Positions 17,690 to 43,808 of a stretch of 43,808 nucleotides of DNA are shown here, in pieces; within the stretch, counting starts at the first letter, position 1; each line of letters begins with the position of its first letter. Under the pieces are notes generated by a model, which was not told where the DNA came from, did no database searches, and was given only the letters and a program-made list of their open reading frames with translations. This DNA is from Okeania sp. KiyG1 (GTDB lineage: Bacteria > Cyanobacteriota > Cyanobacteriia > Cyanobacteriales > Microcoleaceae), in assembly GCF_014132355.1 (NCBI RefSeq), contig NZ_BLZO01000012.1, positions 1 through 43,808 of the forward strand. The letters are read 5' to 3'. The translations under genes and the position numbers were made by a program.

Positions 17690-18781
17690 TTAAGCTAATC
17701 CATAGTAACGCAAAGGATTATCATGGAGAATTTTCTTGATAGTATCCTCTGGTAACCTTTCTCGAAGTGCTAGAGCTTCATCCACACTTTCGATAAAATT
17801 CGGATGATCCATATGTGGAAAGTCTGAACCAAATAGTAATTTATCAGCACCAATATATTCAATTAATTGTGCTAAATAAGGCTCATCAACCTCAAAACCG
17901 ATATAACATTGGCGATGGAAATACTCTGAAGGTTTCATCTTGACATTATCTTTTACCTCAAAATAAAGGTTTTCATATTCCTCGTCTAATCTCCATAACC
18001 AGTAAGGAAGCCAACCACAACCTGATTCAAAAAATCCCACTCTGAGTTGTGGATGACGTTCTAAAACTCCCCCTTCAATTAGTGCCAAAAGTGCCATCAT
18101 TTGCTCCATAGGATGGGAGCAAGCATGAAGAGCAAAGCGAGTGTTAAATCTGTCTGCACCAGTAGTAGGTAGACGACTGTGAGTTCCTTCGTGAACAGTT
18201 ACTGCTACATTCAGACGTTCGCATTCGCTCCAAAATGGTTCGTAGGCGGGATCGCTTAAAATCCTTCCCTTTACAGGGTTAGGACGGATAAATACAGCCT
18301 TCCAACCAAATTCCACAATCCGTTGTAACTCAGGTACCATTTCTTCTGGGTCGTGTTGGTTAATGGCTCCTATACCCCTCAATTTTTGAGGAGCGTGATT
18401 GCAAAAATCATGTAACCAATTGTTATAGGAGCGAACAAAAGCTCCTGCTAACTTCGAGTCCATTGTATCAATAGACCACATCCACAATCCCATTGATGGA
18501 TAGAGAAAAGTCATGTTAGAACCCATCTTATCCATCAACTCAACTCGTGCTTGAGGGTCATAAGCTCCCTTATACATATCTGGGTCTTTTTGCGCAGTTT
18601 TAGCCGCTTCTGACTCCACAAAATCAGATGGGTTGAACTTATACAATATAGATTCACCATCAAGCATATAGTTTTCTTTAGGAGCAAAATGTTTAAACTC
18701 TGGTTCTAGATATTTTTCCCAGAGGTCTAATGGTTCTAAAACATGGCTGTCAGCATCAATAATTTCGTAGTTTTTGAGCAT
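17690..18781 (-). CDS. Amidohydrolase-2 family (ACMSD-like TIM-barrel) protein at the end of the NRPS operon
   Basis: A 363-residue metal-dependent TIM-barrel protein of the amidohydrolase-2 family, which includes aminocarboxymuconate-semialdehyde-type decarboxylases as well as hydrolases. It begins YEIIDADSHVLEP (D9-x-D11-x-H13, replacing the usual HxH). Further candidate metal ligands are His197 and His201 in TVHEGTH, His219/His223 in ALHACSHP, and the C-terminal FGSDFPHMDH aspartate. There is no signal peptide. It starts 33 bp after the thioesterase-ending NRPS gene on the same strand with no visible terminator, so it is probably co-transcribed. A tailoring role, possibly decarboxylation of the C-terminal thiazoline carboxylate, is inference from position and family. 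Simple amide hydrolysis is the alternative. Confidence 0.85.
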   Translation of the reverse strand: MLKNYEIIDADSHVLEPLDLWEKYLEPEFKHFAPKENYMLDGESILYKFNPSDFVESEAAKTAQKDPDMYKGAYDPQARVELMDKMGSNMTFLYPSMGLWMWSIDTMDSKLAGAFVRSYNNWLHDFCNHAPQKLRGIGAINQHDPEEMVPELQRIVEFGWKAVFIRPNPVKGRILSDPAYEPFWSECERLNVAVTVHEGTHSRLPTTGADRFNTRFALHACSHPMEQMMALLALIEGGVLERHPQLRVGFFESGCGWLPYWLWRLDEEYENLYFEVKDNVKMKPSEYFHRQCYIGFEVDEPYLAQLIEYIGADKLLFGSDFPHMDHPNFIESVDEALALRERLPEDTIKKILHDNPLRYYGLA

Positions 18782-27487: not shown

Positions 27488-27508
27488 ACGTTTTTTTTAT
27501 ATCATTCA

Positions 27509-30500
27509 TTATTGATCAACCTCAGCTAAAATTTGTTCAAGTATATCGCTGTCCACTTGTTCCAATTGTTGTTCAACTAAAACTTCTGCTAGTTGAGCGA
27601 TAGTAGGATTTTCAAATAGGTTACTTACCGATAACTCCAGATTCAAAGTGCTTCGCACCCGAGACACAACTTGAGTTCCCATCAAAGAATGGCCACCCAA
27701 ATCAAAGAAGTTATCGTGTATTCCCACCTGTTCTATACCCAACACTTCGGCCCAAATCTCTGCTAATACCTTTTGTGTCTCCGTCTGAGGAGCTACATAC
27801 TCCGTTGACAGACTATTGGCAAAATCTGGGACAGGCAAAGCCTTACGGTCTACTTTACCGTTAGGAGTTAGAGGCAGTTGCGACAACACCATCAACCCTG
27901 ATGGCACCATATACTCTGGCAATTTTGACTCCAGATATTCTCTCAACTCTGGTATCAGTTGTTTTCTCAACTGAGAACTCAACGGATTATTACCATAATT
28001 ATTCCAGTTACCTCCTACCACCGATTTTTGAGTCAGCGGTGTTAACACTATCCCTTCTTTTGCTAAGAAACTGCGCACAAATACCGCATCCATTAATTCT
28101 CCTTTTCCCTGAGCTGACCAACACAACTCTAAACTGTACCCTAAATCCGAACTCAGTTCATATAACCTCTCTGGCTCTATGCTATTGACTTGCTTTGACT
28201 CTAAAAACTGCCTCAACTGCTGCACATTATCTTTTGATTCTGGCTGTGACAGCAACTCTACCAACTCTACATCATTTGCCACTCTGCTATTGACTAAACC
28301 ACTAAAGCATATTGATTCTGGCTCTTGCTCTCGCAGATAAGTTTCTATTTCTTCATAACTCATACCTGCTCCATTTTCTACTGTCCCTGGTATTATTGAT
28401 TCCGCTGGGGCTTCTATATGCAATAGTATACTATAGCGGTATTTATTCAGTTCATTTGTCTCCCTTCCCCTCTGTAAACGGATTTGTACATGAGTTATTT
28501 CTGGATGTTTTTCTTTGATAGCTACAAACAATTCTGGTGATACCAGTAACTCGGTCTCCTGCTCCATTTTTCTGTCTATCTTGGCCTTTAGTTGTTGTTG
28601 CGACAGTGATGAAGTTCCTTGATACAGTTGCACCGAAGAGTGAAATGCTTTCATTAATGGCTGACTGCGGATATCTCCTAGGAAAATCATTCCTCCTGGT
28701 TTTACTACCCTGATGCTTTCTTCTATTACTTGCAATAGATACTCCACACTAGGGAAATACTGAACTATGGAACTCAGTAATACGGCATCGAAACTGTTCT
28801 CAGCTATATCTGCCATGTCTTCCGCTCGTTTCTGTGCTAAGGATACATGACTATATTTGTCTGGTTCCTGTTCTATTTGTTTTTTGATGTATTCTAATGA
28901 GACATTGGAGATATCTGTTCCTAAATATTTTTTTGTCTGGGGTGCGATTTGAAATAGCAGCATTCCTGTGCCACAACCTATTTCCCATACACTCTCTGGT
29001 TTAGCTGCTAATACTTGAGTTACTATATCTCCTGCCCAGATGCGCATTTGCTCTACTGGTATGGGTTGGTTGTCGTAGTTGCTTATCCATCCTCTGGTGT
29101 TGAATAGGGGGTCACTTACTTCACTTAGTTGGTCGTATATTTGTTGGTTGAATATGTCTTGCCAACTGTCTACTTGAGTTTCTGATAGTTCGGGGTTGGT
29201 GGTTGTTGTGCTTTGGGTTTCTGGTACTATGTATGCTACTAAACGTTTGTCTCCTGCCTTGTCTTCTGTTGCTACTACTACTGTTTCTTTGACTTGAGGG
29301 GCTGAGTTCAGGACTGCTTCTATTTCTCCTGTTTCTATACGATAGCCTCGCACTTTTACCTGATGGTCTATTCTACCTAGAAATTCTATGTTGCCATCAC
29401 TTAGATAACGTCCTAAGTCTCCTGTTTTATATAATTTTGTGGCTTTTGAGTTTTCAAAAGGGTTGGGAATAAATTTGGAGGCTGTGAGTTCGGGGCGGTT
29501 GTGGTAGCCTTTTGCCAAACCATCTCCTCCAATATGAAGTTCTCCAGGCACTCCTATGGGGACTGTTTCGAGATTTGAGTCCAGGATATATATTTGGGTG
29601 TTCGATATTGGCTTACCTATGGGGACTGATTTTTCTAGGTTACTATCCGCCAAGACTTGGAAACAGCAGGTGAATGTTGTGTTTTCTGTTGGTCCGTAAC
29701 CGTTTATTAATTTACATCCAGGCAGTTTTTCTACGACTTTCTGCACATGAGTAACTGATAAGACGTCTCCTCCTGCTAATAGTTGCTTGAGTGAGAGTAA
29801 GTTTTCTAGTTCCTCTTCTACCATCAGTTGGAATAATCCTGCACTCAGCCATAGGGTTGTGACTTGGTTTTCCCTCACTGCTACTCCTATTTCTGCTAGG
29901 GAGGGTTTATGAGGTGGCATTACTACTAGAGTTCCTCCATTGAGCAGACTGCCCCAAATTTCCAATGTGGCTGCATCGAAGGATATGGGTGCTAATTGTA
30001 GGAATATATCTTCTTGTGTCAGGGTAATATAGTTGGTATTTTTTACCAGTCGCACTACTCCTTGATGTCTGATGTTTACTCCCTTGGGTTGACCTGTTGA
30101 CCCGGATGTATACATCATGTATGCTTGATGCTCTGATGTTATTGATACTTTTAGGTTTTCTCCGCTTTCTGTCTTGGCTTGATCTGACTCCAGACATATT
30201 ACTTGAGCTGTTGTTTGAGGTAGATGATGTTGCCATTTTTCTTGAGTCAAGATTACGGATAGTTGTGCATCTTCTACCATGTAATTGAGACGCGATGGGG
30301 GATAATGCGGGTCTAATGGTACATAAGCACCTCCGGCTTTAAGTATGGAGAGTAAACCTACTACCATTTCTACTGAACGCTCTACACATATTCCCACTAG
30401 GCTTTCTGAACCTACTCCCAACTTTTGCAAATAACAGGCTAGTTGATTGGCTTTACTATTTAATTCGGAATAGGTCAGCTTTTGTTGTTCAAATACTACT

Positions 30501-32167
30501 GCTATTGCATCCGGGGTTTTCTCCACCTGCTCTTCAAATAATTGATGGATACATTTGTCAGTTGGGTAATCTGTTATAGTATTGTTCCATTCTATCAGTA
30601 TCTTCTCTTGCTCTGCCTCTGTCATTAATGGCAATTTGCTAATAGGTTCCTCTGGTGTCTCTACTGCTGCCGTGAGCAAGTTTTGGTAATGTGACAGCAT
30701 CCGACTAATTGTTTCGGCCTCAAATAAATCTCTGTTATAAGCACAGAATCCTTTGATTTCTTCTCCTACTGGCCACAAATGTAACTCTAAGTCAAACCTT
30801 ACTGTCATCTCAGCTTCTGCCCCTTCATACCAACCTACCTCTAAGTTAGGTAAGTTGAAGGATGGTTTTAAGATTTCCTCTTGCTGCACCGCAAACATTA
30901 CCTGAAATAAGGGGTTTTGGGATAGAGACCTTTCTGGCTGCAACTCTTCTACCAACTTCTCAAAGGGTATGTCTTGGTGAGAGTATGCTTCTAGAGCTGT
31001 TTGTTTGACTCTATTTAACACTTCTGTAAAACTTGGGAACCCTCCCAAGTCTGTGTGCATGACTAGGGAGTTGACAAAGAAACCTATTAACCCTTCTATT
31101 TCACTGCGGTTGCGGTTGGCTATCGGTGTTCCTACTGCTACACTTTCTTGACCACTGTAACGAGACAGTAATACTTTGAATGCTGCTAGCAAGGTCATAA
31201 ATAGAGTGGTTCCCTGCTTTTGGGTCAGTTGTTTAACTTTTGATGTTAGTGCTGCTGGTATGTTGATCGGTATACCTGCTCCTCGAAAGGTTTCCACTGC
31301 AGGTCGGGGATGGTCTGTGGGTAGTTGGAGTTGGGGTACCTCTTGCAGCTTTTGCTTCCAGTAACTGAGTTGGGTTTCTAGGGTTTCACCTTGTAAGTAG
31401 TTCCTTTGCCACACTGCAAAGTCGGCATATTGTATGGGCAAATCTGGTAATGAGGATGGTTGGTCTTCCAGTTGGGCCGTGTAAATAGCTGATAGTTCTT
31501 TGGGTAATACTGTCAGTGACCAGCCATCGCTGGCTATGTGATGTAATGTGATTTGCAGTATGTGTTCTGTTGTTCCTAGTTGATACAACTGAGTGCGTAT
31601 GGGAGGGTCTACTTCTAGATTAAATGAAAGTTCATTTTCTTGTTGGAGTAGTTGTTGTAGTTTGGTGGTAGCTTCTGATGGTGTTAACTCACTCAGGTCT
31701 TTTAATGGTAGTTGTAGTTCAAAAGAGGGTTTAATTATTTGTACTGGTGTGCCGTTGATTTCACTGAAAGTGGTTCTCAGGGTTTCATGGCGAGCGATGA
31801 TTTGGTTGAGACTTTTTTCTAGGGCTATATAGTCTAGCTTACCTACTAGATGTAGGGTTAATGGCATATTGTAGGCGTTGCTACTCAAAGCCATTTTTTC
31901 TATAAACCATAGCCTTTGTTGTGCATAAGACAAGGGTGGAGGGTTGCCATTTAGCTCAATAGGTTTGATTTGGTTTTGCTGGGAGTCTGTCTTTAAATTA
32001 GCTTGTTGTAAAAAAGTAATAATTTCTTGCTTACGATCGCTTAGTTGAATGCGTAGTTCTGATGTCAATACTCCCTCTGGAGCATTACAACGCAAGCGTT
32101 CATCTTCAACCCATAATTTAACATCTTGACTAGCGAGTTCGTCTAAAAATTTCTCTAATGTTTTCAT
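27509..32167 (-). CDS. NRPS module: TubC-dock-C-A(Val)-nMT-T
   Basis: 1552 residues. N-terminal TubC-type docking domain (1-~55; MKTLEKFLDELASQDVKLWV). C domain with HHIASDGWS near 208, of the L-to-L type. A domain (MYTSGSTGQPKG near 690) with pocket residues D-A-L-W-L-G-G-T-F, a Val-type code. N-methyltransferase inserted in the A domain (VWEIGCGTGM near 1063). T domain with GGHSLMGTQ near 1491. Predicted to add N-methyl-Val. The C-terminal tail LEQVDSDILEQILAEVDQ differs from the acidic -EEIEL/-ERGEL tails upstream and is probably a different docking helix. The ATG overlaps the stop of the upstream NRPS (ATGA), with AGGAAA about eight bases before it, so the two are translationally coupled. 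Its stop TAA overlaps an ATG by one base. Confidence 0.95.
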   Translation of the reverse strand: MKTLEKFLDELASQDVKLWVEDERLRCNAPEGVLTSELRIQLSDRKQEIITFLQQANLKTDSQQNQIKPIELNGNPPPLSYAQQRLWFIEKMALSSNAYNMPLTLHLVGKLDYIALEKSLNQIIARHETLRTTFSEINGTPVQIIKPSFELQLPLKDLSELTPSEATTKLQQLLQQENELSFNLEVDPPIRTQLYQLGTTEHILQITLHHIASDGWSLTVLPKELSAIYTAQLEDQPSSLPDLPIQYADFAVWQRNYLQGETLETQLSYWKQKLQEVPQLQLPTDHPRPAVETFRGAGIPINIPAALTSKVKQLTQKQGTTLFMTLLAAFKVLLSRYSGQESVAVGTPIANRNRSEIEGLIGFFVNSLVMHTDLGGFPSFTEVLNRVKQTALEAYSHQDIPFEKLVEELQPERSLSQNPLFQVMFAVQQEEILKPSFNLPNLEVGWYEGAEAEMTVRFDLELHLWPVGEEIKGFCAYNRDLFEAETISRMLSHYQNLLTAAVETPEEPISKLPLMTEAEQEKILIEWNNTITDYPTDKCIHQLFEEQVEKTPDAIAVVFEQQKLTYSELNSKANQLACYLQKLGVGSESLVGICVERSVEMVVGLLSILKAGGAYVPLDPHYPPSRLNYMVEDAQLSVILTQEKWQHHLPQTTAQVICLESDQAKTESGENLKVSITSEHQAYMMYTSGSTGQPKGVNIRHQGVVRLVKNTNYITLTQEDIFLQLAPISFDAATLEIWGSLLNGGTLVVMPPHKPSLAEIGVAVRENQVTTLWLSAGLFQLMVEEELENLLSLKQLLAGGDVLSVTHVQKVVEKLPGCKLINGYGPTENTTFTCCFQVLADSNLEKSVPIGKPISNTQIYILDSNLETVPIGVPGELHIGGDGLAKGYHNRPELTASKFIPNPFENSKATKLYKTGDLGRYLSDGNIEFLGRIDHQVKVRGYRIETGEIEAVLNSAPQVKETVVVATEDKAGDKRLVAYIVPETQSTTTTNPELSETQVDSWQDIFNQQIYDQLSEVSDPLFNTRGWISNYDNQPIPVEQMRIWAGDIVTQVLAAKPESVWEIGCGTGMLLFQIAPQTKKYLGTDISNVSLEYIKKQIEQEPDKYSHVSLAQKRAEDMADIAENSFDAVLLSSIVQYFPSVEYLLQVIEESIRVVKPGGMIFLGDIRSQPLMKAFHSSVQLYQGTSSLSQQQLKAKIDRKMEQETELLVSPELFVAIKEKHPEITHVQIRLQRGRETNELNKYRYSILLHIEAPAESIIPGTVENGAGMSYEEIETYLREQEPESICFSGLVNSRVANDVELVELLSQPESKDNVQQLRQFLESKQVNSIEPERLYELSSDLGYSLELCWSAQGKGELMDAVFVRSFLAKEGIVLTPLTQKSVVGGNWNNYGNNPLSSQLRKQLIPELREYLESKLPEYMVPSGLMVLSQLPLTPNGKVDRKALPVPDFANSLSTEYVAPQTETQKVLAEIWAEVLGIEQVGIHDNFFDLGGHSLMGTQVVSRVRSTLNLELSVSNLFENPTIAQLAEVLVEQQLEQVDSDILEQILAEVDQ

Positions 32168-35100
32168 AGTTCTATTTCCTCTCGTTTTTCTTGGTTATTA
32201 GAAGTAGTTTGTAGTCGTTTTGCTAGAGATAGGTTATTGTCATCTATAGCTTCAAGGTCACTGCTTAATTGAGCGATAGTAGGGTTTTCAAATAGCTTAC
32301 TTACCGATAACTCCAGATTCAAAGTACTTCGCACCCTAGACACAACCTGAGTTGCTCTCAAAGAATGGCCTCCCAAATCAAAGAAGTTATCATAAACTCC
32401 CACCTTTTCTATTCCCAACACTTCGGCCCAAATCTCTGCTAATTCCTTCTGTGTCTCCGTCTCTGGAGCTACATACTCCGTTGACACACTACTGGCCACA
32501 TCCGGGACAGGTAGTGCTTTACGGTCTACCTTACCATTCGGTGTCAGTGGCAGTTGTGGCAACAGTACAAACCTACCAGGTATCATATATTCCGGCAACT
32601 GCTGTTTCAGATACCGTTTCACTTTATCTATTTGTTCTGCCTCTGATACTTCTGGAGTTTCACTTTCTAGCACTAGATAAGCTACTAAATCTTGATTACC
32701 AGAGTTATCTTCTCTTGCTAATACCACTGTTTCTTTAACTGTGGGATGTTGAGTTAGAGTCGCTTCTATTTCTCCTGTTTCAATACGGTATCCTCGCACT
32801 TTTACCTGATGGTCAATTCTACCCATAAATTCTATATTGCCATCACTTAGATAACGTCCTAAGTCTCCTGTCTTATATAACTTTGTGGCTTTTGAAAACT
32901 CAAAAGGGTTGGGAATAAATTTGGAGGCTGTGAGTTCGGGGCGGTTGTAGTACCCTATTGCTAAACTATCTCCTCCAATATGAAGTTCTCCTGCTACTCC
33001 TATGGGCACTGGTTGCAAATTTTTATCCAAAATATATACTTTGGTATTGGATATTGGTTTACCAATAGGTGGTGAAATAGTGCTTCCTTGACCTGAAACT
33101 ACCAACCCACAGGTAGTTACTACTGTATTCTCTGTCGGACCATAGTTATTAAATACACGGAATGGTAAAGCTGCCGATGGGTACTTTTGTAGCCGATCTC
33201 CTCCTGTGAGTACAGTTCTTAATTCGGTTTCGGCACTCCATTCTAAGGCACACAAATTCTCCAGTAGAGGCGTTGGGACAAAACTCATTGTTATTTTTTC
33301 TGAGATTAGCCAATTTCTCAATGCTTCTGGAGACAGACGAGTTTCTGAGTTTACTAAGTGCAAACTTGCACCTGCACTCAAGTAAGGCCAGATTTCCCAC
33401 ACAGAGGCATCAAAACCTACTCCTGCTATTTGAGACGCTCTATCTGATGGTTTCACTTCAAAAGTACGTTGATGCCAGAACACTAGATTTAATAATCCTT
33501 GATGAGGAATAGTTACTCCTTTTGGCTTGCCTGTCGAACCTGAAGTATAGATCGCGTAAGCTAACTGATTGGCTGTTACCTGATTTTTAGGCGTTTCCTG
33601 ACTCTGTTGAGCAATAATTTCGGAGTCTGTATCCAAACAAATCACAGATGCTTTTGTGTCCGATAGATGATGTTGCCATTTTTGTTGAGTCAGTAGTATA
33701 GATAGTTCTGCATCTTCTATCATGTAATTGAGACGCGATGGGGGATAATTTGGGTCTAATGGCACATAAGCTCCTCCTGCCTTGAGTATGGAGAGTAAAC
33801 CTACTACCATTTCTACTGAACGCTCTACACAGATACCCACTAAGGTTTCTGGTACTACTCCCAATTTTTGCAAATAATGTGCTAGTTGATTAGCTTTACT
33901 ATTTAATTCCGAATAGGTCAGCTTTTGCTCTTCAAATACTACTGCTACTGCATCTGGTGTTTTCTCTACCTGATATTCAAATAATTCATGGATACATTTG
34001 TCAGTAGGGTAATCTGTTTTCGTGTTGTTCCACTCTACCAATATTTGGTCTAGCTCTGCCTTTTTCATTAATGGCAACTTGCTCACAGGTTGCTCTGGAG
34101 TCTCTACTGCTGCTGATAGTAAGTTTTCATAATGTGACACCATGCGACTAATCGTTTGTGGCTCAAACAAGTCTCGGTTATAGACACATAATCCTTTGAT
34201 TTCTTCTCCTTCTAACCACAGATGTAACTCTAAGTCAAACCTCACTGTCATTTGATCTCCCATCCATCGCTCCCAACCTAACTCTACCTCTAAGTTAGGC
34301 AAGCTGAAGGATGGTTTCATTTGTTCACTCTGCTGAACTGCAAATATCACCTGAAATAAGGGGTTTTGCGATAGAGACCGTTCTGGTTGCAACTCTTGTA
34401 CCAATTTCTCAAAGGGTATATCTTGATGAGAGTATGCTTCTAGGGCTGTTTGTTTCACCCTGTTTAATATTTCTGTGAAACTACAGTCCCCTCCTAGGTC
34501 TGTGTACATGACTAGGGAGTTGACAAAGAAACCAATCAATCCTTCTATTTCACTGCGGTTGCGATTGGCTATCGGTGTTCCTACTGCTATAGTTTCTTGA
34601 CCACTGTAACGAGACAGTAATACTTTGAAGGCTGCTAGCAAAGTCATAAACAGGGTGGTTCCCTGCTTTTGGGTCAGTTGTCTAACTTTTGATGTTAGTG
34701 CTGCTGGTATGTTTATGGGTATACCTGCTCCATTAAAAGTTTGAACTGGGGGTCGGGGATGGTCTGTGGGTAGTTGTAGTTGAGATAAATTTTGGAGCTT
34801 TTGCTTCCAATAGCTAAGTTGGGTTTCGAGGGTTTCACCTTGTAAGTAGTTCTTTTGCCATACTGCAAAGTCTGCATATTGTATTGGTAGCTCTGGTAAT
34901 GGGAATGATTGCTCTTCCAGTTGGGCCGTGTAAATAGCTGATAGTTCTTTCGGTAATACTGTGAGTGACCAGCCATCGCTTGCTATGTGATGTAATGTGA
35001 TTTGCAGTATGTGTTCTGTTGTTCTTAGTTGAAATAACCGAGCGCGTATGGGAGGGTCTATTTCCAGATTAAATATTTGTTCATTTTCTTGTTGGAGTAG

Positions 35101-35616
35101 TTGTTGGAGTTTGGTAGTAGCTTCTGATGGTGTTAACTCACTTAGGTCTTTTTTCGTTAGTTCGAGTTCAAAGTGAGGTCGAATTATTTGTACTGGTGTG
35201 CCATCTATTTCACTGAAGGTAGTTCTCAGGGTTTCATGGCGAGCGATGATTTGATTGATACTTTTTTCTAGGGCTACATAGTCTAGTTGCCCTACCAGAT
35301 TTAGGGTTAATGGCATATTGTAGGCGTTGCTACTCAAGGCCATTTTTTCTAGGAACCATAGCCTTTGTTGTGCATAAGATAAGGGTGGAGGGTTGCCATT
35401 TCGCTCAATAGGTTTGATTTGCTCCTCAAAAATATTAGTAGTTTGTTTAATTTGAAGCATAAAGCTTAATATTTCAGCCTTCCGGTCAGCCAACTCACTG
35501 CGTAGTATAGATGTCATCTTTCCTTTTGGGGCACTATATTGTAGGCGGTTTTCCTCCACCCAAAGCTTAACCCCTAAACTACGAAGCTCTGACAATAACT
35601 GCTTAATAGTTTTCAT
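32164..35616 (-). CDS. NRPS module: TubC-dock-C-A(Leu)-T
   Basis: 1150 residues, the minimal C-A-T architecture without methylation. TubC-type docking domain at the N-terminus (MKTIKQLLSELRSLGVKLWV). C domain with HHIASDGWS near 210. A domain (IYTSGSTGKPKG near 694) with pocket D-A-W-F-L-G-N-V-V, identical to the Leu code I recall from microcystin McyB. T domain with GGHSLRATQ near 1083. Predicted to add L-Leu. The tail NNQEKREEIEL is acidic-hydrophobic, as expected for a peptide that binds a TubC domain. Four-base ATGA overlaps with both neighbouring NRPS genes indicate coupled translation. Confidence 0.95.
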   Translation of the reverse strand: MKTIKQLLSELRSLGVKLWVEENRLQYSAPKGKMTSILRSELADRKAEILSFMLQIKQTTNIFEEQIKPIERNGNPPPLSYAQQRLWFLEKMALSSNAYNMPLTLNLVGQLDYVALEKSINQIIARHETLRTTFSEIDGTPVQIIRPHFELELTKKDLSELTPSEATTKLQQLLQQENEQIFNLEIDPPIRARLFQLRTTEHILQITLHHIASDGWSLTVLPKELSAIYTAQLEEQSFPLPELPIQYADFAVWQKNYLQGETLETQLSYWKQKLQNLSQLQLPTDHPRPPVQTFNGAGIPINIPAALTSKVRQLTQKQGTTLFMTLLAAFKVLLSRYSGQETIAVGTPIANRNRSEIEGLIGFFVNSLVMYTDLGGDCSFTEILNRVKQTALEAYSHQDIPFEKLVQELQPERSLSQNPLFQVIFAVQQSEQMKPSFSLPNLEVELGWERWMGDQMTVRFDLELHLWLEGEEIKGLCVYNRDLFEPQTISRMVSHYENLLSAAVETPEQPVSKLPLMKKAELDQILVEWNNTKTDYPTDKCIHELFEYQVEKTPDAVAVVFEEQKLTYSELNSKANQLAHYLQKLGVVPETLVGICVERSVEMVVGLLSILKAGGAYVPLDPNYPPSRLNYMIEDAELSILLTQQKWQHHLSDTKASVICLDTDSEIIAQQSQETPKNQVTANQLAYAIYTSGSTGKPKGVTIPHQGLLNLVFWHQRTFEVKPSDRASQIAGVGFDASVWEIWPYLSAGASLHLVNSETRLSPEALRNWLISEKITMSFVPTPLLENLCALEWSAETELRTVLTGGDRLQKYPSAALPFRVFNNYGPTENTVVTTCGLVVSGQGSTISPPIGKPISNTKVYILDKNLQPVPIGVAGELHIGGDSLAIGYYNRPELTASKFIPNPFEFSKATKLYKTGDLGRYLSDGNIEFMGRIDHQVKVRGYRIETGEIEATLTQHPTVKETVVLAREDNSGNQDLVAYLVLESETPEVSEAEQIDKVKRYLKQQLPEYMIPGRFVLLPQLPLTPNGKVDRKALPVPDVASSVSTEYVAPETETQKELAEIWAEVLGIEKVGVYDNFFDLGGHSLRATQVVSRVRSTLNLELSVSKLFENPTIAQLSSDLEAIDDNNLSLAKRLQTTSNNQEKREEIEL

Positions 35617-38600
35617 AATTCTCCTCTTTCCTCATCTTCTTGTTGTACAGAACTTTCCCCTATACTCTGGAGAACATCTTTTGCTATCATTAATAAGGTG
35701 TCTATTTCCTGAGCCAGACTTGCCACATTTGAATTCTCAAATAGGTTTTGTAGGGATAATTCTAGATTCAAAGTATTTCGCACCCTAGATACAACCTGAG
35801 TTGCCATCAAAGAATGCCCACCCAAATCAAAGAAGTTATCATAAACTCCCACCTTTTCTATTCCCAACACTTCGGCCCAAATCTCTGCTAAGACTTTCTG
35901 TGTCTCTGTTTCAGGAGCTACATACTCCGTTGACACACTACTGGCCACATCCAGGTCAGGCAATACCTTACGGTCTACCTTACCATTCGGTGTCAGTGGC
36001 AGTTGTGACAACACCATCAACCCCGATGGCACCATATACTCTGGCAACCTCGACTCCAGATACTCTCTCAACTGCGGTATCAGTTCCTTTCTCAACTGGG
36101 AGATCAAAGGATTATTCCCATAATGAACCCAGTTTCCTCCTGGCACCGATTTTTGAGTTAGGGGTGTTAGCACTATCCCTTCTTTGGCTAACTCACTGCT
36201 GACAAATACCCCATCCATCAATTGGGGACTTCCCTGTCCTGACCAACACAACTCTAAACTATATCCTAAATCCGAACTCAGTTCATATAAACTTTCTGGG
36301 TCTATAGTTTTGACTCCCTTTGACTCTAACCTCTGCCTCAACTGTTGTACATTCTCTTTTGCTTTTGGCTGTGATAGCAACTCTACTAAATCTACATCCT
36401 TGGCCACTCTCTGATTCACTAAACCACTAAAGCAAATTGATTCTGGTTGCTTTTGTTGCAGATATGCTTTGATATCCTCATAACTCATATCCGCTCCACT
36501 TTCTACAGTCTGTGTGATTACTGATGCTGGCTGTACATTTATATGCAACAGTACGCTATACCTATATTTATTCAGTTCATTGTGTTCTGTTCCCCTCTGT
36601 AAACGGATTTGTACATGAGTTATTTCTGGATGTTTTTCTTTAAGAGCTACAAACAAATCTGGTGACACTAACAACTCTTTATCCTGTTGAATTTGTCTGT
36701 CTATCTTTGCCTTGAGTTGTTCTACTGACAGTGATGGAGTTCCTTGATACAGTTGCACCGAAGAGTGAAATGCTTTCATTAATGGCAAATTCCTGACATC
36801 TCCTAGGATAATCATCCCTCCTGGTTTGACTATCCGAATTGCCTGAGATATTACTTGTAACAAATACTCTACGTTCGGAAAATATTGAATCACCGAGTTT
36901 AAGAGCACCACGTCGAAGCTTTGAGCTGCTATGTCACCTATCTCATTTGCTCTTTTCTGTGCTAGATTAACATGAGCATATTTCTCTGGTTCGGCTAGTA
37001 TTTGTTGTTGGATATACTCTAGTGATATACTGGATATATCTATGCCTAAATAGGCTTGTGTGTGGGGGGCTATTTGAAATAGTAGCAACCCTGTTCCACA
37101 ACCTATTTCACATACTTTTTCCGGTTCATGTGCTAATACTTGAGCTACAATATCTCCTGCCCAGGTTCGCATTTGACTTTCTGGTAAGGATTGGTTGTCA
37201 TAACTGCTACTCCAACCTGAGATGTTGAATAATGGGTCGGTTACTTCACTCTTGTGTTCATCAATTTGTTGGTTAAATAGGTTTTGCCAACTGTTGATTT
37301 GAGTGTCTGATAGTTCTGGATTTGATGTGATGCTGCTTTCAACTTCAGGTACTATATATGCTACTAGACGTTGAGCATCTGAGTTATCTTCTCTTGCTAC
37401 TACTACTGTTTGCTTGACACTGGGATGTTGAGTTAGGGTAGCTTCTATTTCTCCTGTTTCTATTCGGTATCCTCGCACTTTCACTTGGTGGTCGAGGCGT
37501 CCCATAAATTCTATATTCCCATCAACTAGATAACGGCCTAAATCTCCTGTCTTGTATAATTTTGACTTTTGAGTGTTATCAAAGGGATTGGGGATAAACC
37601 TCTGAAGTGTTAAATCCTCTCGCTTGAGATACCCACGAGCTAAACCTATCCCACCTATATAAATTTCACCCGCTACTCCTGTGGGTACTGGTTGTAAATT
37701 TCTGTCTAGAATATAGATTTGAGTATTGCTGATCGGCCTACCTATGGGCGGTATTGAACATTCTGGTGAACATTCGGCCATTGTCGCACATACTGTTGAT
37801 TCTGTTGGTCCGTACGCATTCACAAATTGTCGCCCCTTTGCCCAGTACGATATTAGCTCTGGTGGGCAAGCTTCTCCTGCTACTACTATGGTCTTTAAAT
37901 CAGGTAATTCCTCTTTGGGCATCACTGCTAGAGCTGAAGGAGGAATCGTGATATGGGTGATTTTGTTGTTGTGCAACCACTTATTCATTCCTGCTCCTGG
38001 CATTAAGGTATCTCGGCTGCCCATATACAAACTCGCTCCTGAACCTAAAGCCATGACTATTTCCCAGATGGAGGCATCGAAACTTAATGAGGCGAACTGA
38101 ACCACTCTGCTGTTGGAGTTGACTTCAAATGCTCTACTTTGAACTCTTGTCAGATTACACAGTCCCTTGTGTTCTACTAATACTCCTTTGGGTTTACCTG
38201 TGGAACCTGATGTATAAATTACATAAGCTAAATTTTGGGGACTGACTTCACTCTTGACTTTTTCTGGTGTTTCTGTAGCTATTTTTTCCCAATCTCTATC
38301 TAGAAAAACTACTTGGGCTTGATGTTGGGGGAGTTGAGCTAATATTTGCTGTTGAGTTAGCAACACTGACACTTGGGAGTCAGCGAACATATATTCTAGG
38401 CGTTCTTGGGGATAGTTCGGGTCTAATGGCACATAAGCTCCTCCAGCTTTGAGTATGGAGAGTAAACCTATTACCATTTCTACTGAAGGCTCTACACAGA
38501 TACCAACCAGGGTTTCTGAAACTACTCCCAATTTTTGCAAGTAATGTGCTAGTTGATTTGCTTTAGTATTTAATTGAGAGTAAGTTAAGCTTTGCTCTTC

Positions 38601-40292
38601 AAATACTACTGCTATTGCATCTGGGTTTTTTTCTACCTGCTCTTCAAATAACTGATGGATACATTTGTCTTTTGGGTAATCTGTTGTTGTGTTGTTCCAC
38701 TCTATCAGAATCTTCTCTTGCTCTACCTCTGTCATTAATGGCAATTTGCCAACTGGTAACTCTGGACTCTCTACTGCTGCTGATAGTAAGTTTTCATAAT
38801 GTGACAGCATACGAGTAATTGTTTCCGCCTCAAACAAGTCTCGGTTATAGGCACAAAATCCTTTGATTTCTTCTCCTACTGGCCATAGATGTAACTCTAA
38901 GTCAAACCTCACTGTCATTAAATCTCCCATCCATCGCTCCCAACCTAACTCTACCTCTAAGTTAGGTAAGCTAAAGGATGGTTTCAATATTTCCTCCTGC
39001 TGCACCGCAAATACCACCTGAAACAAGGGGTTTTGGGATAGACTCCGTTCTGGTTGCAACTGTTCTACCAACTTCTCAAAGGGTATGTCTTGGTGAGAGT
39101 ATGCTTCTAGGGCTGTTTGTTTCACCCTGTTTAATATTTCTGTGAAACTACAGTCCCCTCCTAGGTCTGTGTACATGACTAGGGAGTTGACAAAGAAACC
39201 TATTAACCCTTCTATTTCACTGCGGTTGCGGTTGGCTATGGGTGAACCTACTGCTATACTTTCTTGACCACTGTAACGAGACAACAATACTTTGAAGGCT
39301 GCTAGCAAGGTCATAAATAGGGTCGTTCCCTGCTTTTGGGTCAGTTGTTTAACTTTTGATGTTAGTGCTGCTGGTATGTTTATCGGTATGCCTGCTCCTC
39401 GAAAAGTTTCAAAGGCAGGCCGGGGATGGTCTGTGGGTAATTGTAGTTGGGGTACCTCTTGCAGCTTTTGCTTCCAGTAGTTGAGTTGAGTTTCTAGGGT
39501 GTCACCTTGCAAGTAGTTCCTTTGCCAAATTGCAAAGTCGGCATATTGTATGGGCAAATCTGGTAATGGGGATGGTTCATCTTCCAGTTGGGCCGTATAA
39601 ATAGCTGATAGTTCTTTGGGTAGTACTGTCAGTGACCAGCCATCGCTGGCTATGTGATGTAATGTTATTTGCAGTATGTGTTCAGTAGCTCCTAGTTGAA
39701 ATAACCGAGCGCGTATGGGGGGGTCTACTTCCAGATTAAATGTTTGTTCATTTTCTTGTTGTAGTAGTTGTTGTAGTTTGGTGGTAGCTTCTGATGGTGT
39801 TAATCCACTGAGGTCTTTTAATGGTAGTTGTAGTTCAAAAGAGGGTTTAATTATTTGTACTGGTGTGCCGTTGATTTCACTGAAGGTGGTTCTCAGGGTT
39901 TCATGGCGAGCGATGATTTGGTTGAGACTTGTTTGTAAGGTTACATAATCTAGTTGACCTACTAGATCTAGGGTTAATGGCATATTGTAGGCGTTGCTAC
40001 TCAAAGCCATTTTTTCTATAAACCATAGCCTTTGTTGTGCATAAGACAAGGGTGGCAGGTTGCCGTTTCGCTCAGTAGGTTTTATTTGATACGGCTGTGA
40101 GTATACAGATTGTTTGGCACTGTACAAAAAGCTGAGGACTTCTGCTTTACGTTCCCGCAGTTGAGCTAGCAATGTGGGTGTAAGTTTTCCTTCAGGAGCA
40201 CTATAGTGTAGTTGATCTCCTTCAAGCCAAAGTTGAATGTCTTGGTTGCGAAGCTCAAATAAAAACTCTTCTATCATTTGTATTTGTTTCAT
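35613..40292 (-). CDS. NRPS module: TubC-dock-C-A(Phe)-nMT-T
   Basis: 1559 residues. TubC-type docking domain (FLFELRNQDIQLWLEGDQL). C domain with HHIASDGWS near 212. A domain (IYTSGSTGKPKG near 697) with pocket D-A-W-T-V-A-A-V-C, one or two conservative changes from the gramicidin Phe code D-A-W-T-I-A-A-I-C. N-methyltransferase insert (CEIGCGTGLL near 1066). T domain with GGHSLMATQ near 1492. Predicted to add N-methyl-Phe. The tail QEDEERGEL is acidic. The start at 40292 has GGAG ten bases upstream; an ATG 15 bp inside is a weaker alternative. It starts 2 bp after the previous NRPS stop and overlaps the next by 4 bp. Confidence 0.95.
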   Translation of the reverse strand: MKQIQMIEEFLFELRNQDIQLWLEGDQLHYSAPEGKLTPTLLAQLRERKAEVLSFLYSAKQSVYSQPYQIKPTERNGNLPPLSYAQQRLWFIEKMALSSNAYNMPLTLDLVGQLDYVTLQTSLNQIIARHETLRTTFSEINGTPVQIIKPSFELQLPLKDLSGLTPSEATTKLQQLLQQENEQTFNLEVDPPIRARLFQLGATEHILQITLHHIASDGWSLTVLPKELSAIYTAQLEDEPSPLPDLPIQYADFAIWQRNYLQGDTLETQLNYWKQKLQEVPQLQLPTDHPRPAFETFRGAGIPINIPAALTSKVKQLTQKQGTTLFMTLLAAFKVLLSRYSGQESIAVGSPIANRNRSEIEGLIGFFVNSLVMYTDLGGDCSFTEILNRVKQTALEAYSHQDIPFEKLVEQLQPERSLSQNPLFQVVFAVQQEEILKPSFSLPNLEVELGWERWMGDLMTVRFDLELHLWPVGEEIKGFCAYNRDLFEAETITRMLSHYENLLSAAVESPELPVGKLPLMTEVEQEKILIEWNNTTTDYPKDKCIHQLFEEQVEKNPDAIAVVFEEQSLTYSQLNTKANQLAHYLQKLGVVSETLVGICVEPSVEMVIGLLSILKAGGAYVPLDPNYPQERLEYMFADSQVSVLLTQQQILAQLPQHQAQVVFLDRDWEKIATETPEKVKSEVSPQNLAYVIYTSGSTGKPKGVLVEHKGLCNLTRVQSRAFEVNSNSRVVQFASLSFDASIWEIVMALGSGASLYMGSRDTLMPGAGMNKWLHNNKITHITIPPSALAVMPKEELPDLKTIVVAGEACPPELISYWAKGRQFVNAYGPTESTVCATMAECSPECSIPPIGRPISNTQIYILDRNLQPVPTGVAGEIYIGGIGLARGYLKREDLTLQRFIPNPFDNTQKSKLYKTGDLGRYLVDGNIEFMGRLDHQVKVRGYRIETGEIEATLTQHPSVKQTVVVAREDNSDAQRLVAYIVPEVESSITSNPELSDTQINSWQNLFNQQIDEHKSEVTDPLFNISGWSSSYDNQSLPESQMRTWAGDIVAQVLAHEPEKVCEIGCGTGLLLFQIAPHTQAYLGIDISSISLEYIQQQILAEPEKYAHVNLAQKRANEIGDIAAQSFDVVLLNSVIQYFPNVEYLLQVISQAIRIVKPGGMIILGDVRNLPLMKAFHSSVQLYQGTPSLSVEQLKAKIDRQIQQDKELLVSPDLFVALKEKHPEITHVQIRLQRGTEHNELNKYRYSVLLHINVQPASVITQTVESGADMSYEDIKAYLQQKQPESICFSGLVNQRVAKDVDLVELLSQPKAKENVQQLRQRLESKGVKTIDPESLYELSSDLGYSLELCWSGQGSPQLMDGVFVSSELAKEGIVLTPLTQKSVPGGNWVHYGNNPLISQLRKELIPQLREYLESRLPEYMVPSGLMVLSQLPLTPNGKVDRKVLPDLDVASSVSTEYVAPETETQKVLAEIWAEVLGIEKVGVYDNFFDLGGHSLMATQVVSRVRNTLNLELSLQNLFENSNVASLAQEIDTLLMIAKDVLQSIGESSVQQEDEERGEL

Positions 40293-40294
40293 AC

Positions 40295-43200
40295 CTAGAG
40301 AACTCCTTGATTACGTTTATTAGCTCTATTATCTTGGGTAATTGGAAGTGTTTTGGCTGCCCAAATAGAGGTATCTATATACTTACTTATACTTTCCACT
40401 GTAGAAGATTCAAATAGTTTTCTTAAAGGAAACTCTATCTCAAAGGCTTGTCGTATTCGAGACACAACTTGAGTTGCCAGTAAAGAATGCCCACCTAAAT
40501 CAAAGAAGTTATCATGTATTCCCACCTTTTCTATTCCCAACACCTCTGCCAAAATCTCTGCTAATACTTTCTGGGTCTCCGTCTCAGGAGCTATATACTC
40601 CGTTGACACACTACCGATATTATCCATTACAGGTAATGCCTTACGGTCTACCTTTCCACTAGGAGTCAGTGGCAGTTGTGACAACACTACAAACCCAGAA
40701 GGTATCATATACTCCGGCAACTGCTCTTGGAGATACTGTTTCACCCGATCTATTTGTTCGATCTCTGATACCTCTTGGTTTGAGCTAGCTGGAGTTTCAG
40801 TTTCTAGCGCTAGGTAAGCCACTAGACGTTTATTACCCTGGCGATCTTCTGTTGCTACTACTACTGTTTCTTTAACTGTCGGATATTGAGTTAAAGTGTA
40901 TTCTATTTCCCCTGTTTCAATACGGTATCCTCGCACTTTGACTTGGTGGTCAATGCGCCCTAAAAATTCTATGTTCCCATCAGCTAGATAACGGCATAAG
41001 TCTCCGGTTTTATATAATTTCGTGGCTTTTGAAAACTCAAAAGGATTGGGGATAAATTTCTCCGCTGTTAGTTCACGGCGCCTCAAATAACCATTGGCCA
41101 AACCTACTCCTCCAATGTAAAGTTCTCCTGGAACCCCCACTGGTACTGGTTGTTGCTCACGGCTGAGAATATAAAGTTGACTATTAGCGATCGCACGACC
41201 TATGGGAGGGAGTGTCGGCCAGTTATCCACATCTCCTTGTAATGTATAAGCAGAAACTACATGGCTTTCTGATGGTCCATATTGATTTTGTAGTCTACAC
41301 ACCGGTAGTCGCTGCATCATCTCCACTAGGTCTGGAGTTATCTGCAATTGTTCTCCTGCTGTGATCACCTCCCGCAATGGTGGCAAATTTTCGCACTCAC
41401 AAGCCACTGCTGCTAACTGTTGCAAACCTACAAATGGTAAAAATAGTCGCTCTACTTGGTTGTGAGTTAAGAATTCCATCAATGCTAACGGGTCACCCCT
41501 CAGCTCTGAAGACACTAACACCAGAGTCCCCCCATCACACCAAGTGGAGAATATTTCTTGGAAGGATACGTCAAAGCTAATGGGAGCAAATTGTAGAGTT
41601 TTTGCCCCTTGACTAACTACTGCTTCCTCCCGTTGCCAATGTATTAGGTTTACCAAAGCACCTTGACTCATGGCTACTCCTTTGGGTTTACCTGTGGAGC
41701 CAGAGGTATAAATGACATAGCCCAAGTTTGATGGTTTGACTTCACTGCTCAAATTACCTGGAGAACAATCAGACCATAGATTTTTATTACTATCCAAACA
41801 CACTATCTGACCTTGATGTTCTGGTAATAATGTTACTAATGATTCCTGGGTCAACAATACAGACACTTGGGCATCAGAAATCATATAAGCCAAACGTTCT
41901 GATGGATAAGTGGGGTCTAATGGTACATAAGCTCCTCCTGCTTTAAGTATGGAGAGTAAACCTATTACCATCTCTAACGAACGCTCTACACATATTCCCA
42001 CTAGGCTTTCTGAACCTACTCCCAATTTTTGCAAGTAATGTGCTAGTTGATTTGCTTTAGTATTTAATTGAGAGTAAGTTAAGCTTTGCTCTTCAAATAC
42101 TACTGCTATTGCATTGGGGTTGTTTTCTACCTGCTCTTCAAATAACTGATGGATACATTTGTCATCTGGATAATCTGTTGTGGTATTGTTCCATTCTCTC
42201 AGTATTTGCTCTAGCTCTGGCTGTGTCATTAATGGCAACTTGCTAATAGGTCTGTGTGGACTCTCTACTGCTGCTAATAGTAAGTTTTCATAATGTGACA
42301 GCATACGAGTAATTGTTTGTGGCTCAAACAAGTCTCGGTTATAGGCACAAAATCCTTTGATTTCCTCTCCTTCTGGCCACAGATGTAACTCTAAGTCCAT
42401 CCGCACTGTCATTTGAGCTCCCATCCATCGCTCCCAACCTAACTCTACCTCTAAGTTAGGCAGGCTGAATGATGGTTTCATTTGTTCACTCTGCTGAACT
42501 GCAAATATCACCTGAAATAAGGGATTTTGCGATAGAGACCTTTCTGGCTGCAACTCTTCTACCAATTTCTCAAAGGGTATGTCTTGGTGAGAGTATGCTT
42601 CTAGGGCTGTTTGTTTAACTCGGTTTAATACTTCTGTGAAACTCAAGTCCCCTCCCAGGTATGTGTGCATCACTAGGGAGTTGACAAAGAAACCAATTAA
42701 CTCTTCTATTTCTCGGCGGTTGCGGTTGGCTATGGGCGAACCTACTGCTATACTCTGTTGACCACTGTAACGAAATAACAATACCTTAAATACTGCGAGC
42801 AAGGTCATAAATAGGGTGCTTCCCTGCTTTTGGCTCAGTTGTTTAACTTTTGATGTTAGTGCTGCTGGTATGTTGATCGGTATACCTGCTCCATTAAAGG
42901 TTTGAACTGGGGGTCGCAGATGGTCTGTTGGTAGTTGCAGTTGGGGTAAGTTTTGTAGCTTTTGCTTCCAGTAGTTGAATTGGCTTTCGAGAGTTTCACC
43001 TTGTAAGTAGTTTCTTTGCCACACTGCAAAGTCGGCATATTGTATAGGTAGCTCTAGTAATGGGGATGGTTTCTCTTCCAGTGTAGCAGTATAAATGGCT
43101 GAGAGTTCTTTGGCTAATACTGTGAGTGACCAGCCATCACTTGCGATGTGATGTAATGTGATTTGCAGTATGTGTTCTGTTGTTCCTAGTTGAAACAACT

Positions 43201-43777
43201 GAGCCCGTATGGGGGGGTCTACTTCTAGATTAAATGTTTGTTCATTTTCTTGTGGGAGTAGTTGTTGTAGTTTGGTAGTTTGCTCAGATGCTGTTAACCC
43301 ACTGAGGTCTTTTTTGGGTAGTTGTAGTTCAAAGGGGGGTTGAATTATTTGTACTGGTGTGCCATTGATTTCCCTGAAGGTGGTTCTCAGGGTTTCATGG
43401 CGAGCTATAATTTGGTTGAGACTTTTTTCTAGGGCTACATAGTCTAGTTCTCCTACTAGATGTAGGGTCAATGGCATATTGTAGGCGTTGCTACTCAAGG
43501 CCATTTTTTCTATAAACCATAGCCTTTGTTGTGCATAGGATAACCGTGGAGGAGCGACATTTCGCTCTATAGGCTTAATTGGGTTTTCCTTGAAATTTCT
43601 CTTTAAATTAGCTTGTTGTAAAAAAGTAATAATTTCCTGCTTACGATTGCTTAATTGAGTCTGTAGCTCTGATGTCAATACTCCCTCTGGAGCTTTACAA
43701 CGCAAGCGTTCACCTTCAAGCCATAATTTGACATTTTGATTAGCCAGATTCTCTAAAAATTTCTCTAAGGTTTTCAC
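40295..43777 (-). CDS. NRPS module: TubC-dock-C-A(Pro-like)-T
   Basis: 1160 residues from a GTG start. TubC-type docking domain (KTLEKFLENLANQNVKLWLE). C domain with HHIASDGWS near 211; because it is an ordinary elongation C domain it must receive a peptide or acyl chain from an upstream protein. A domain (IYTSGSTGKPKG near 694) with pocket D-V-Q-F-I-A-Q-V-V. This is closest to Pro codes (D-V-Q-x-I-A-H-V-V), with Gln for His at position 322. T domain with GGHSLLATQ near 1096. The GTG at 43777 is preferred over the ATG at 43795: a GGAGG lies ten bases before it, it aligns with the ATG of the paralogous gene at 32167, and the sequence between the two codons encodes the tail of the previous gene in another frame. 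Confidence 0.92.
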   Translation of the reverse strand: MKTLEKFLENLANQNVKLWLEGERLRCKAPEGVLTSELQTQLSNRKQEIITFLQQANLKRNFKENPIKPIERNVAPPRLSYAQQRLWFIEKMALSSNAYNMPLTLHLVGELDYVALEKSLNQIIARHETLRTTFREINGTPVQIIQPPFELQLPKKDLSGLTASEQTTKLQQLLPQENEQTFNLEVDPPIRAQLFQLGTTEHILQITLHHIASDGWSLTVLAKELSAIYTATLEEKPSPLLELPIQYADFAVWQRNYLQGETLESQFNYWKQKLQNLPQLQLPTDHLRPPVQTFNGAGIPINIPAALTSKVKQLSQKQGSTLFMTLLAVFKVLLFRYSGQQSIAVGSPIANRNRREIEELIGFFVNSLVMHTYLGGDLSFTEVLNRVKQTALEAYSHQDIPFEKLVEELQPERSLSQNPLFQVIFAVQQSEQMKPSFSLPNLEVELGWERWMGAQMTVRMDLELHLWPEGEEIKGFCAYNRDLFEPQTITRMLSHYENLLLAAVESPHRPISKLPLMTQPELEQILREWNNTTTDYPDDKCIHQLFEEQVENNPNAIAVVFEEQSLTYSQLNTKANQLAHYLQKLGVGSESLVGICVERSLEMVIGLLSILKAGGAYVPLDPTYPSERLAYMISDAQVSVLLTQESLVTLLPEHQGQIVCLDSNKNLWSDCSPGNLSSEVKPSNLGYVIYTSGSTGKPKGVAMSQGALVNLIHWQREEAVVSQGAKTLQFAPISFDVSFQEIFSTWCDGGTLVLVSSELRGDPLALMEFLTHNQVERLFLPFVGLQQLAAVACECENLPPLREVITAGEQLQITPDLVEMMQRLPVCRLQNQYGPSESHVVSAYTLQGDVDNWPTLPPIGRAIANSQLYILSREQQPVPVGVPGELYIGGVGLANGYLRRRELTAEKFIPNPFEFSKATKLYKTGDLCRYLADGNIEFLGRIDHQVKVRGYRIETGEIEYTLTQYPTVKETVVVATEDRQGNKRLVAYLALETETPASSNQEVSEIEQIDRVKQYLQEQLPEYMIPSGFVVLSQLPLTPSGKVDRKALPVMDNIGSVSTEYIAPETETQKVLAEILAEVLGIEKVGIHDNFFDLGGHSLLATQVVSRIRQAFEIEFPLRKLFESSTVESISKYIDTSIWAAKTLPITQDNRANKRNQGVL

Positions 43778-43808
43778 AGTTCTATTTCCTCCCATTTTTC
43801 TTGATTGT
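43774..43808 (-). CDS. C-terminus of an upstream NRPS-operon protein (partial)
   Basis: On the minus strand the last 35 bp of the window read NQEKWEEIEL then TGA, overlapping the GTG start of the next NRPS by four bases (GTGA). The tail is almost identical to NQEKREEIEL at the end of the Leu-module NRPS (32164-35616), which also overlaps its downstream gene by four bases. I conclude that another protein of the assembly line, ending in a TubC-binding tail, lies directly upstream outside the window. Only ten residues are visible. Confidence 0.75.
   Translation of the reverse strand, partial: NQEKWEEIEL

Follow-up and report, generated by a model that had tools for sequence, protein, structure and literature searches.

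Two near-copy docking joints in an Okeania peptide synthetase line carry matched tail and dock differences and probably keep a colinear order

Introduction

This study concerns a nonribosomal peptide synthetase (NRPS) line of the cyanobacterium Okeania sp. KiyG1 in which two joints between successive proteins, each formed by a C-terminal tail (a short linear motif, SLiM) and the N-terminal TubC_N docking domain (dock) of the next protein, are near copies of each other. The rhabdopeptide synthetase Kj12ABC uses docking of this type, and the Kj12 study (PMC6195595; PDB 6EWS-6EWV) reports contacts of tail residue E(-2) with dock residue R24, G(-3) with Y27 and R(-4) with E28, tail residues being counted back from the end. 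The same text describes a dock with Lys28 that binds 8-fold more weakly (62 µM) than two others (8 µM), and an Arg-to-Glu change in the tail that restores binding to this dock (13 µM). With docking affinities that span 8-fold and more, the rhabdopeptide synthetase yields a mixture of products, and promiscuity of this docking type is documented there and in PMC9113145. The best solved relatives of one of our docks, that of the proline NRPS, are TubC, AerJ and EpoB (PDB 2JUG, 8AQQ and 5T7Z; E-values 1.3e-10, 1.8e-10 and 6.3e-5), the first of which is described as a dimer in PMC6195595, and from none of these three do we know an account of twin joints within a single line; Kj12B is matched with an E-value of 9e-4 and the other three Kj12 entries with 0.025 to 0.31.

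The stretch that was analysed, hereafter the window, is the whole contig NZ_BLZO01000012.1 (G000:C12, 43,808 bp) from an 11 Mb genome. The window resembles the Kj12 system in coupled positions -2/24 and -3/27 and in residue 28 as a specificity position, but in Kj12B it is Arg(-4) of the tail that faces residue 28, whereas both window tails carry Glu(-4) and position -6 varies with residue 28. Kj12 is, moreover, a promiscuous library maker, whereas the window pairs look separated.

In vatiamide-type branching, which Moss is said to have described in 2019, several near-identical docks of one class lie in one marine cyanobacterial locus; the window differs in having a separate tail for each of the two docks, with matched differences between the pairs, in place of a single tail that feeds several docks. 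The vatiamide study is cited for combinational docking-domain interactions in PMC10127204. The minutumamide work (PMC12184294) describes exchange of tail and dock together in cyanobacterial NRPS evolution; there the event is a joining of polyketide synthase (PKS) and NRPS between clusters, whereas the window copy lies inside one line.

Results and Discussion

Five NRPS genes lie on the minus strand of the window in the order N5 -> N4 -> N3 -> N2 -> N1, with N5 at the 43777 end, and the tail of a further, upstream protein is visible at the contig end. This upstream tail reads NQEKWEEIEL (43806-43777) and the tail of the Leu NRPS, N3, reads NQEKREEIEL (32196-32167), so that, as a preliminary description of the window had it, they differ in a single residue, W/R, sixth from the end (-6). 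The docks that they face, on the Pro NRPS (N5) and the N-Me-Val NRPS (N2), had likewise been called near copies, and they share 49 of 64 residues (77%), whereas the five other dock pairs share 26-30 of 62-64 (41-47%). Among 69 same-strand dock pairs lying within 60 kb of each other, from 41 contigs carrying at least two docks, the Pro/N-Me-Val pair ranks second (0.80 over columns aligned to the hidden Markov model (HMM), against 0.86 for the first, in G384:C11, and a median of 0.48), and the likeness is therefore beyond chance. We think it likely that a docking cassette was copied within this line and re-tuned to stay orthogonal, and that the line runs colinearly as (upstream)-Pro-NMePhe-Leu-NMeVal-... 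The features that form the two joints are the following.

43777..43806, minus strand: C-terminal tail (SLiM) NQEKWEEIEL of the upstream, off-contig protein; its stop TGA (43776-43774) overlaps the next start; from the reading frame, the contig ending at 43808
40295..43777, minus strand: N5, Pro NRPS, TubC_N dock-C-A-PCP with a Pro-like A-domain code and the tail RANKRNQGVL; from Pfam, open reading frame (ORF) and A code
43601..43777, minus strand: Pro NRPS docking domain with N15, C27 and K28 (Kj12/own numbering); from Pfam and alignment
32164..35616, minus strand: N3, Leu NRPS, dock-C-A-PCP with a Leu-like code and the tail NQEKREEIEL; from ORF, Pfam and A code
32167..32196, minus strand: C-terminal tail NQEKREEIEL of the Leu NRPS; from the reading frame
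27509..32167, minus strand: N2, N-Me-Val NRPS, dock-C-A-MT-PCP with a Val-like code and without a SLiM-like tail; from ORF, Pfam and A code
31991..32167, minus strand: N-Me-Val NRPS docking domain with D15, C27 and N28; from Pfam and alignment

The stop of the upstream tail overlaps the GTG start of the Pro NRPS and that of the Leu NRPS tail overlaps the ATG of the N-Me-Val NRPS. The two docks differ in 10 of 51 columns, and two of these, 15 and 28, are the partners of the sole differing tail residue: Trp(-6) stands with N15/K28 at the upstream-to-Pro joint and Arg(-6) with D15/N28 at the Leu-to-N-Me-Val joint. With W-K28 at one joint and R-N28 at the other, the tail differences thus match the dock differences, and both joints share E-R24 and I-C27, which fit common -2/24 and -3/27 types. 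The tails are short, acidic and hydrophobic-ended (EEIEL, EEIEL and ERGEL) except for an atypical fourth, NQGVL; the carrier domain of the upstream protein lies off the contig. Since the DNA of the upstream tail differs from that of the Leu NRPS tail at several bases, the former is not simply a copy of the latter.

In the mechanism that we propose, two of the four TubC-type joints would carry copies of one cassette, a tail plus the dock of the next gene, straddling the overlapping stop and start, and the changes that separate these copies at the recognition surface would be matched between tail and dock. Each tail may add a beta-strand beside strand 2 of its dock, as seen in a related solved complex. 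Arg(-6) would need a residue other than Lys or Arg at position 28 and has Asp15 as its probable partner, Trp(-6) is likely to pack against Lys28, and this matched pairing of tail and dock would give the colinear order.

The coupling of tail and dock positions was determined on a junction set made of every dock plus the tail of the preceding ORF, from congeneric and order-level genomes together with named loci, with docks in Kj12 numbering by alignment. A tail was present for 250 of 320 dock matches, and 155 of these junctions were unique; 13 in which the stop lay over 40 bases ahead of the dock match were dropped, which left 142. Cyanobacteria account for 140 of the 142 and the two others, from named loci L081 and L084, were left in; the junction regions are best-scoring matches of longer lists and not a random sample, and a few of the tails kept are probably not real docking tails (e.g. 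FIWIMGDI, from the ORF before the NRPS on another contig of the genome, C119). Mutual information against shuffles, over 408 position pairs, was highest for tail -3/dock 27 (z 25.5), followed by -6/28 (z 20.2); average-product correction put -3/27, -2/24, -6/28, -1/19 and -4/26 at the head of the list, with -3/27 and -2/24 as the top two. Tail position -6 also covaries with dock residue 15, and -2/24, -4/26 and -6/28 share one antiparallel register, although the method was given no structure.

The residues themselves follow a simple rule. In the 70 joints with Arg(-6), residue 28 is Asn in 43, Ser in 19, Asp in 7 and His in 1, and in none is it Lys or Arg; where -6 is Trp, Tyr, Leu, Met, Ile or Val, Lys or Arg stands at 28 in 31 of 55, the remaining 17 junctions carrying other -6 residues. 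Trp(-6) taken separately (n=14) goes with Lys in 6, Gly in 4, Gln in 2 and Ser and Arg in 1 each, and residue 15 is Asp in 63/70 Arg(-6) joints compared with 4/14 Trp(-6) joints. The window class (tail [K/N]xEEIEL, dock more than 60% identical to a window dock) keeps the rule in 15/15 joints, both window joints counted, with hydrophobic(-6) facing K/R28 in 8/8 and Arg(-6) facing N/S28 in 7/7, and 20 further unique joints outside the 142 include five with Arg(-6), all with D28, and no exception. When docks are restricted to less than 70% identity, K/R28 is found in 0/32 Arg(-6) joints and 15/28 hydrophobic or aromatic ones (p 7e-7), and within the Cys27 class in 0/25 and 4/6 (p 5e-4). A tree of 144 dock rows, from which columns 15 and 28 were removed, requires no fewer than 20 changes of the -6 state. 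By title or abstract opening we found no paper that states the -6/28 rule; supplements lay outside this search, and absence from print is not claimed.

The preliminary description also had the DNA duplicated across both junctions, and this holds for the tail and dock but not beyond. Between the contig end, at -31 relative to the start codon, and about +180, the Pro and N-Me-Val joints are 83-93% identical in nucleotides, and other pairs reach 50-74% there; beyond +240 all six pairs are 65-100% identical per 60-base bin, mostly above 80%. Across the five NRPS proteins, the first condensation (C) domains share 83-92% identity (the second C domain of N1, which scores much lower against Pfam, was left out), compared with 51.5-62.5% for the (first) adenylation (A) domains. 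The first C domains of this line are thus strongly homogenised, and because this is so in every NRPS protein, the likeness of the DNA past the joint does not single out the Pro/N-Me-Val pair. We also considered a whole-module or C-domain duplication specific to the twin joints and rejected it, since the 84% identity of the Pro and N-Me-Val C domains does not exceed that of most of the nine other pairs. On the upstream side, the joints of N2, N3 and N4 are again mostly 83-93% alike over the three bins that begin at -300, two of the three pairs dropping to 68-70% in the final one.

The copied block is a small cassette of tail plus dock. In a congener (G002, locus L099) the upstream joint resembles the N3/N2 joint of the window from about -120 to +180 (88-95%), which gives a cassette of roughly 300 bp. 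The rate of synonymous substitution (dS) for the Pro/N-Me-Val dock pair is 0.215 compared with 0.28-0.40 for the C domains, and its ratio of nonsynonymous to synonymous rates (dN/dS) is 0.47 compared with 0.20-0.22, both values coming from one short dock pair; by its lower dS, the cassette appears to have been copied more recently than the C domains were exchanged. In G137:C15 a different A domain is preceded by a dock that shares 98% identity with that of the Pro NRPS, from which it follows that docks travel between modules.

A log-odds score was derived from the coupled positions, trained without docks at least 70% (or 90%) identical to those of the tested contig and run under 24 settings. 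The cognate dock comes out on top in 46-55 of 57 cases across these settings (26 contigs, some of them orthologous to each other; chance 26), and with a reduced seven-letter alphabet in 11-12 of 14 on six held-out contigs (chance 6). The Leu tail scores better with its own dock than with the Pro dock in 24/24 settings, by 5.4-7.4 nats, and the upstream tail better with its own dock than with the N-Me-Val dock in 22/24, by 1.1-5.2, these margins being scores and not affinities.

These data bear on the suggestion, made in the preliminary description, that the two joints are functionally interchangeable and that the line skips or repeats Pro-NMePhe-Leu to yield a peptide family. Near-copy joints of a promiscuous docking type make cross-feeding possible in principle, and that part of the suggestion stands: the docks are highly identical, the tails are one residue apart, the first C domains are so alike that little else in the sequence would block a wrong partner, and in rhabdopeptide synthesis, according to PMC6195595, dissociation constants of 8 and 62 µM both belong to a working system. 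However, the tail difference falls on the covarying position -6 and the dock differences include its partners 28 and 15; the crosswise pairs Arg(-6)-Lys28 and Trp(-6)-Asn28 are both absent from the 142 natural joints (0/70 and 0/14); the pair score favours the cognate, colinear wiring; and the docks of a branching-type locus described below (G137:C3) lack such differences and come with one detected tail. We regard interchangeability as doubtful and a peptide family of this origin as unlikely, and moderate leakage between the twin joints as possible.

Leakage could also be one-sided, with looping blocked where the Arg tail meets the Lys28 dock and skipping appreciable enough to give a minor shortened congener. 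The uneven margins, large for the loop in all settings and small or, in two settings, negative for the skip, speak for this, as does the broader choice of residue 28 seen with Trp(-6) in nature. Nevertheless, Asn28 is not among the residues that Trp(-6) faces in its 14 joints and the hydrophobic tails of the window class invariably face K/R28, and we consider an appreciable leak of this kind quite improbable. Looping back is disfavoured by the score, and skipping ahead weakly so; since Kj12 stays productive despite clear affinity differences, skipping could occur in the window at a low level.

The contig ends 31 bases upstream of the Pro NRPS start, inside a repeat, and the upstream protein is for this reason visible by its last 10 codons only. 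When the assembly was searched with the DNA of the joint regions, the contig that holds the rest of the gene was not recognised. An assembly artefact would fit these facts, in which case the 10-codon tail does not really precede the Pro NRPS and the window holds one joint of this class plus one further joint. The terminal bases, however, differ from those of the other tail copy, and W-K28 obeys the general -6/28 rule. In the congener locus L099, furthermore, a 2293-codon frame with NRPS domains ends in NQEKREEIEL directly before the orthologue of the Pro NRPS (A domain 86%), and we hold the artefact to be very improbable. At this orthologous upstream joint the congener has Arg(-6) with D15/N28, so that tail and dock differ together between the two genomes. 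A Val-like A domain follows the Pro NRPS orthologue, so that the L099 line is rearranged, and an equivalent of the N3/N2 joint was not found in it.

A copied and re-tuned cassette, the reading that we prefer, can also be compared with other duplicated docks. Eight within-contig pairs have docks of at least 60% identity, and both tails are known in four, namely the window, G169, G189 and G002:C300. In each of the four, the two joints are told apart by a matched charge pair, which is -6/28 for the window and -5/32 for the other three, compared with 275 of 971 pairs of similar identity; the positions were chosen after looking, which makes the four-of-four count a lead only. In L203 (G169:C113), L284 (G189:C305) and L111 (G002:C300) the tails differ K/E at -5 and the docks E/G at 32, which suggests -5/32 as a candidate second matched pair. 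The four pairs with a missing tail are mixed: G169 43815/52536 and G272 differ at dock 32, while G169 43815/49102 has only Asn versus Asp at dock 28. A different layout is seen in G137:C3 (L326), where three docks within about 18 kb are 96-98% identical, show no difference at the coupled positions and have a tail detected before one of them. This is possibly a locus in which one tail serves many docks, the layout expected for true branching; the window docks, by contrast, differ at the coupled positions (N15/K28 versus D15/N28).

Several observations weigh against this reading and temper the strength given to it above. The Kj12 study (PMC6195595) places binding in the five terminal residues of the tail and has residue 28 opposite -4, not -6, and PMC9113145 and PMC13324335 report that non-cognate pairs of this SLiM/TubC_N type can be functional in vitro. 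In 2 of the 24 settings the upstream tail scores better with the wrong dock (margins -1.7 and -1.8), and with the full alphabet the score is correct in only 7-8 of 14 cases on the six held-out contigs, near the chance value of 6. For docks less than 60% identical the contrast in K/R28 shrinks to 0/12 versus 6/17 (Fisher p 0.028), and in the Cys27 class to 0/7 versus 1/3 (p 0.3). Five supported contrasts are available on the dock tree; in an average of 2.5 of them residue 28 changes in step with -6, and in 0 it changes in the opposite sense; with so few independent contrasts the test cannot reach significance, and the -6/28 rule, although consistent, has a weak phylogenetic control. Finally, the docks of G384:C11 (86% alike, one tail not found) differ neither at 28 nor at 32, and near-copy docks in one locus are hence not always marked apart.

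Gene layout and other contigs of the genome

The remaining NRPS features of the window are as follows.

35613..40292, minus strand: N4, N-Me-Phe NRPS, dock-C-A-MT-PCP with a Phe code and the tail QQEDEERGEL; from ORF, Pfam and A code
40116..40280, minus strand: N-Me-Phe NRPS docking domain of a different class (Y27, S28); from the profile match
35449..35616, minus strand: Leu NRPS docking domain of a different class (Y27, S28); from the profile match
18815..27487, minus strand: N1, final NRPS, C-A-MT-PCP-C-A-PCP-TE, without a TubC_N match; from ORF and Pfam

The domain orders are thus C-A-PCP in N5 and N3, C-A-MT-PCP in N4 and N2 and C-A-MT-PCP-C-A-PCP-TE in N1, where the first carrier is one of two PP-binding stretches whose placement in the order is not shown by the scan. 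The TubC_N dock is N-terminal in N2, N3, N4 and N5 and in all four lies above the Pfam cut-off (PF18563, 66.7-79.0 bits versus 26). Motif reading of the A domains gives codes that agree with Pro for N5, Phe for N4, Leu for N3 and Val for N2, some pocket positions having been re-read by eye, and the earlier residue calls are plausible. The first A domain of N1, the sole one found there by motif, looks Gly-like. In an NCBIfam scan of the window proteins, NRPS and acyl-activating models were alone among the matches listed (best 25 of 86-99 per protein).

At the N2-to-N1 joint (27487-27509) the genes lie 21 bases apart, and as N1 has no TubC_N match and N2 no SLiM-like tail, this fifth joint seems to use another mode. 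An amidohydrolase-family gene (PF04909, window 17690-18781) lies 33 bases past the thioesterase NRPS; a PADLOC scan of it gave no match.

Contig C119 was tried as a carrier of the missing upstream gene and rejected, for it encodes a dock-C-A-PCP protein with an alpha/beta-hydrolase start behind; its NRPS is preceded by a 286-codon ORF that by eye looks like a membrane transporter. The matches of a plasmid search were all homologues of less than 60% identity. On G000:C14 (L019, 1523-5613) a PKS is split into ketosynthase-acyltransferase (KS-AT) and dehydratase-acyl carrier protein (DH-ACP) ORFs about 140 bases apart, and the DH-ACP protein has the tail KWIEVEL and overlaps a dock-C NRPS cut by the contig end. 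This contig could be the start of the cluster, with no sequence linking it to the window. G000:C64 (L016) and G000:C82 (L017) carry what is apparently the same NRPS cluster in mirror order, with equal HMM scores for six condensation or docking matches and open frames that are equal but for one (2321 versus 2395); assembly redundancy, mixed strains or a real duplication would account for this.

Conclusions

If the line is wired as we propose, a seemingly negligible difference of one residue helps to keep a duplicated joint from rewiring it. For genome mining, an identical code with one tail would then point to a product family, and matched differences would not, while engineers would gain orthogonal tail-dock pairs from one scaffold. 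If the proposal is wrong, we would be dealing with a locus that naturally produces peptides of varying length, which would be of interest as well.

More tentatively, and as a generalisation about which we have more doubt than confidence, a portable docking cassette of about 300 bp may stay divergent between homogenised carrier and C domains in cyanobacterial NRPS lines, and on its duplication matched charge changes at -6/28 (with 15) or at -5/32 may restore orthogonality. Such a wiring code, if true, would extend the published five-residue rules and could predict protein order and branching from sequence.

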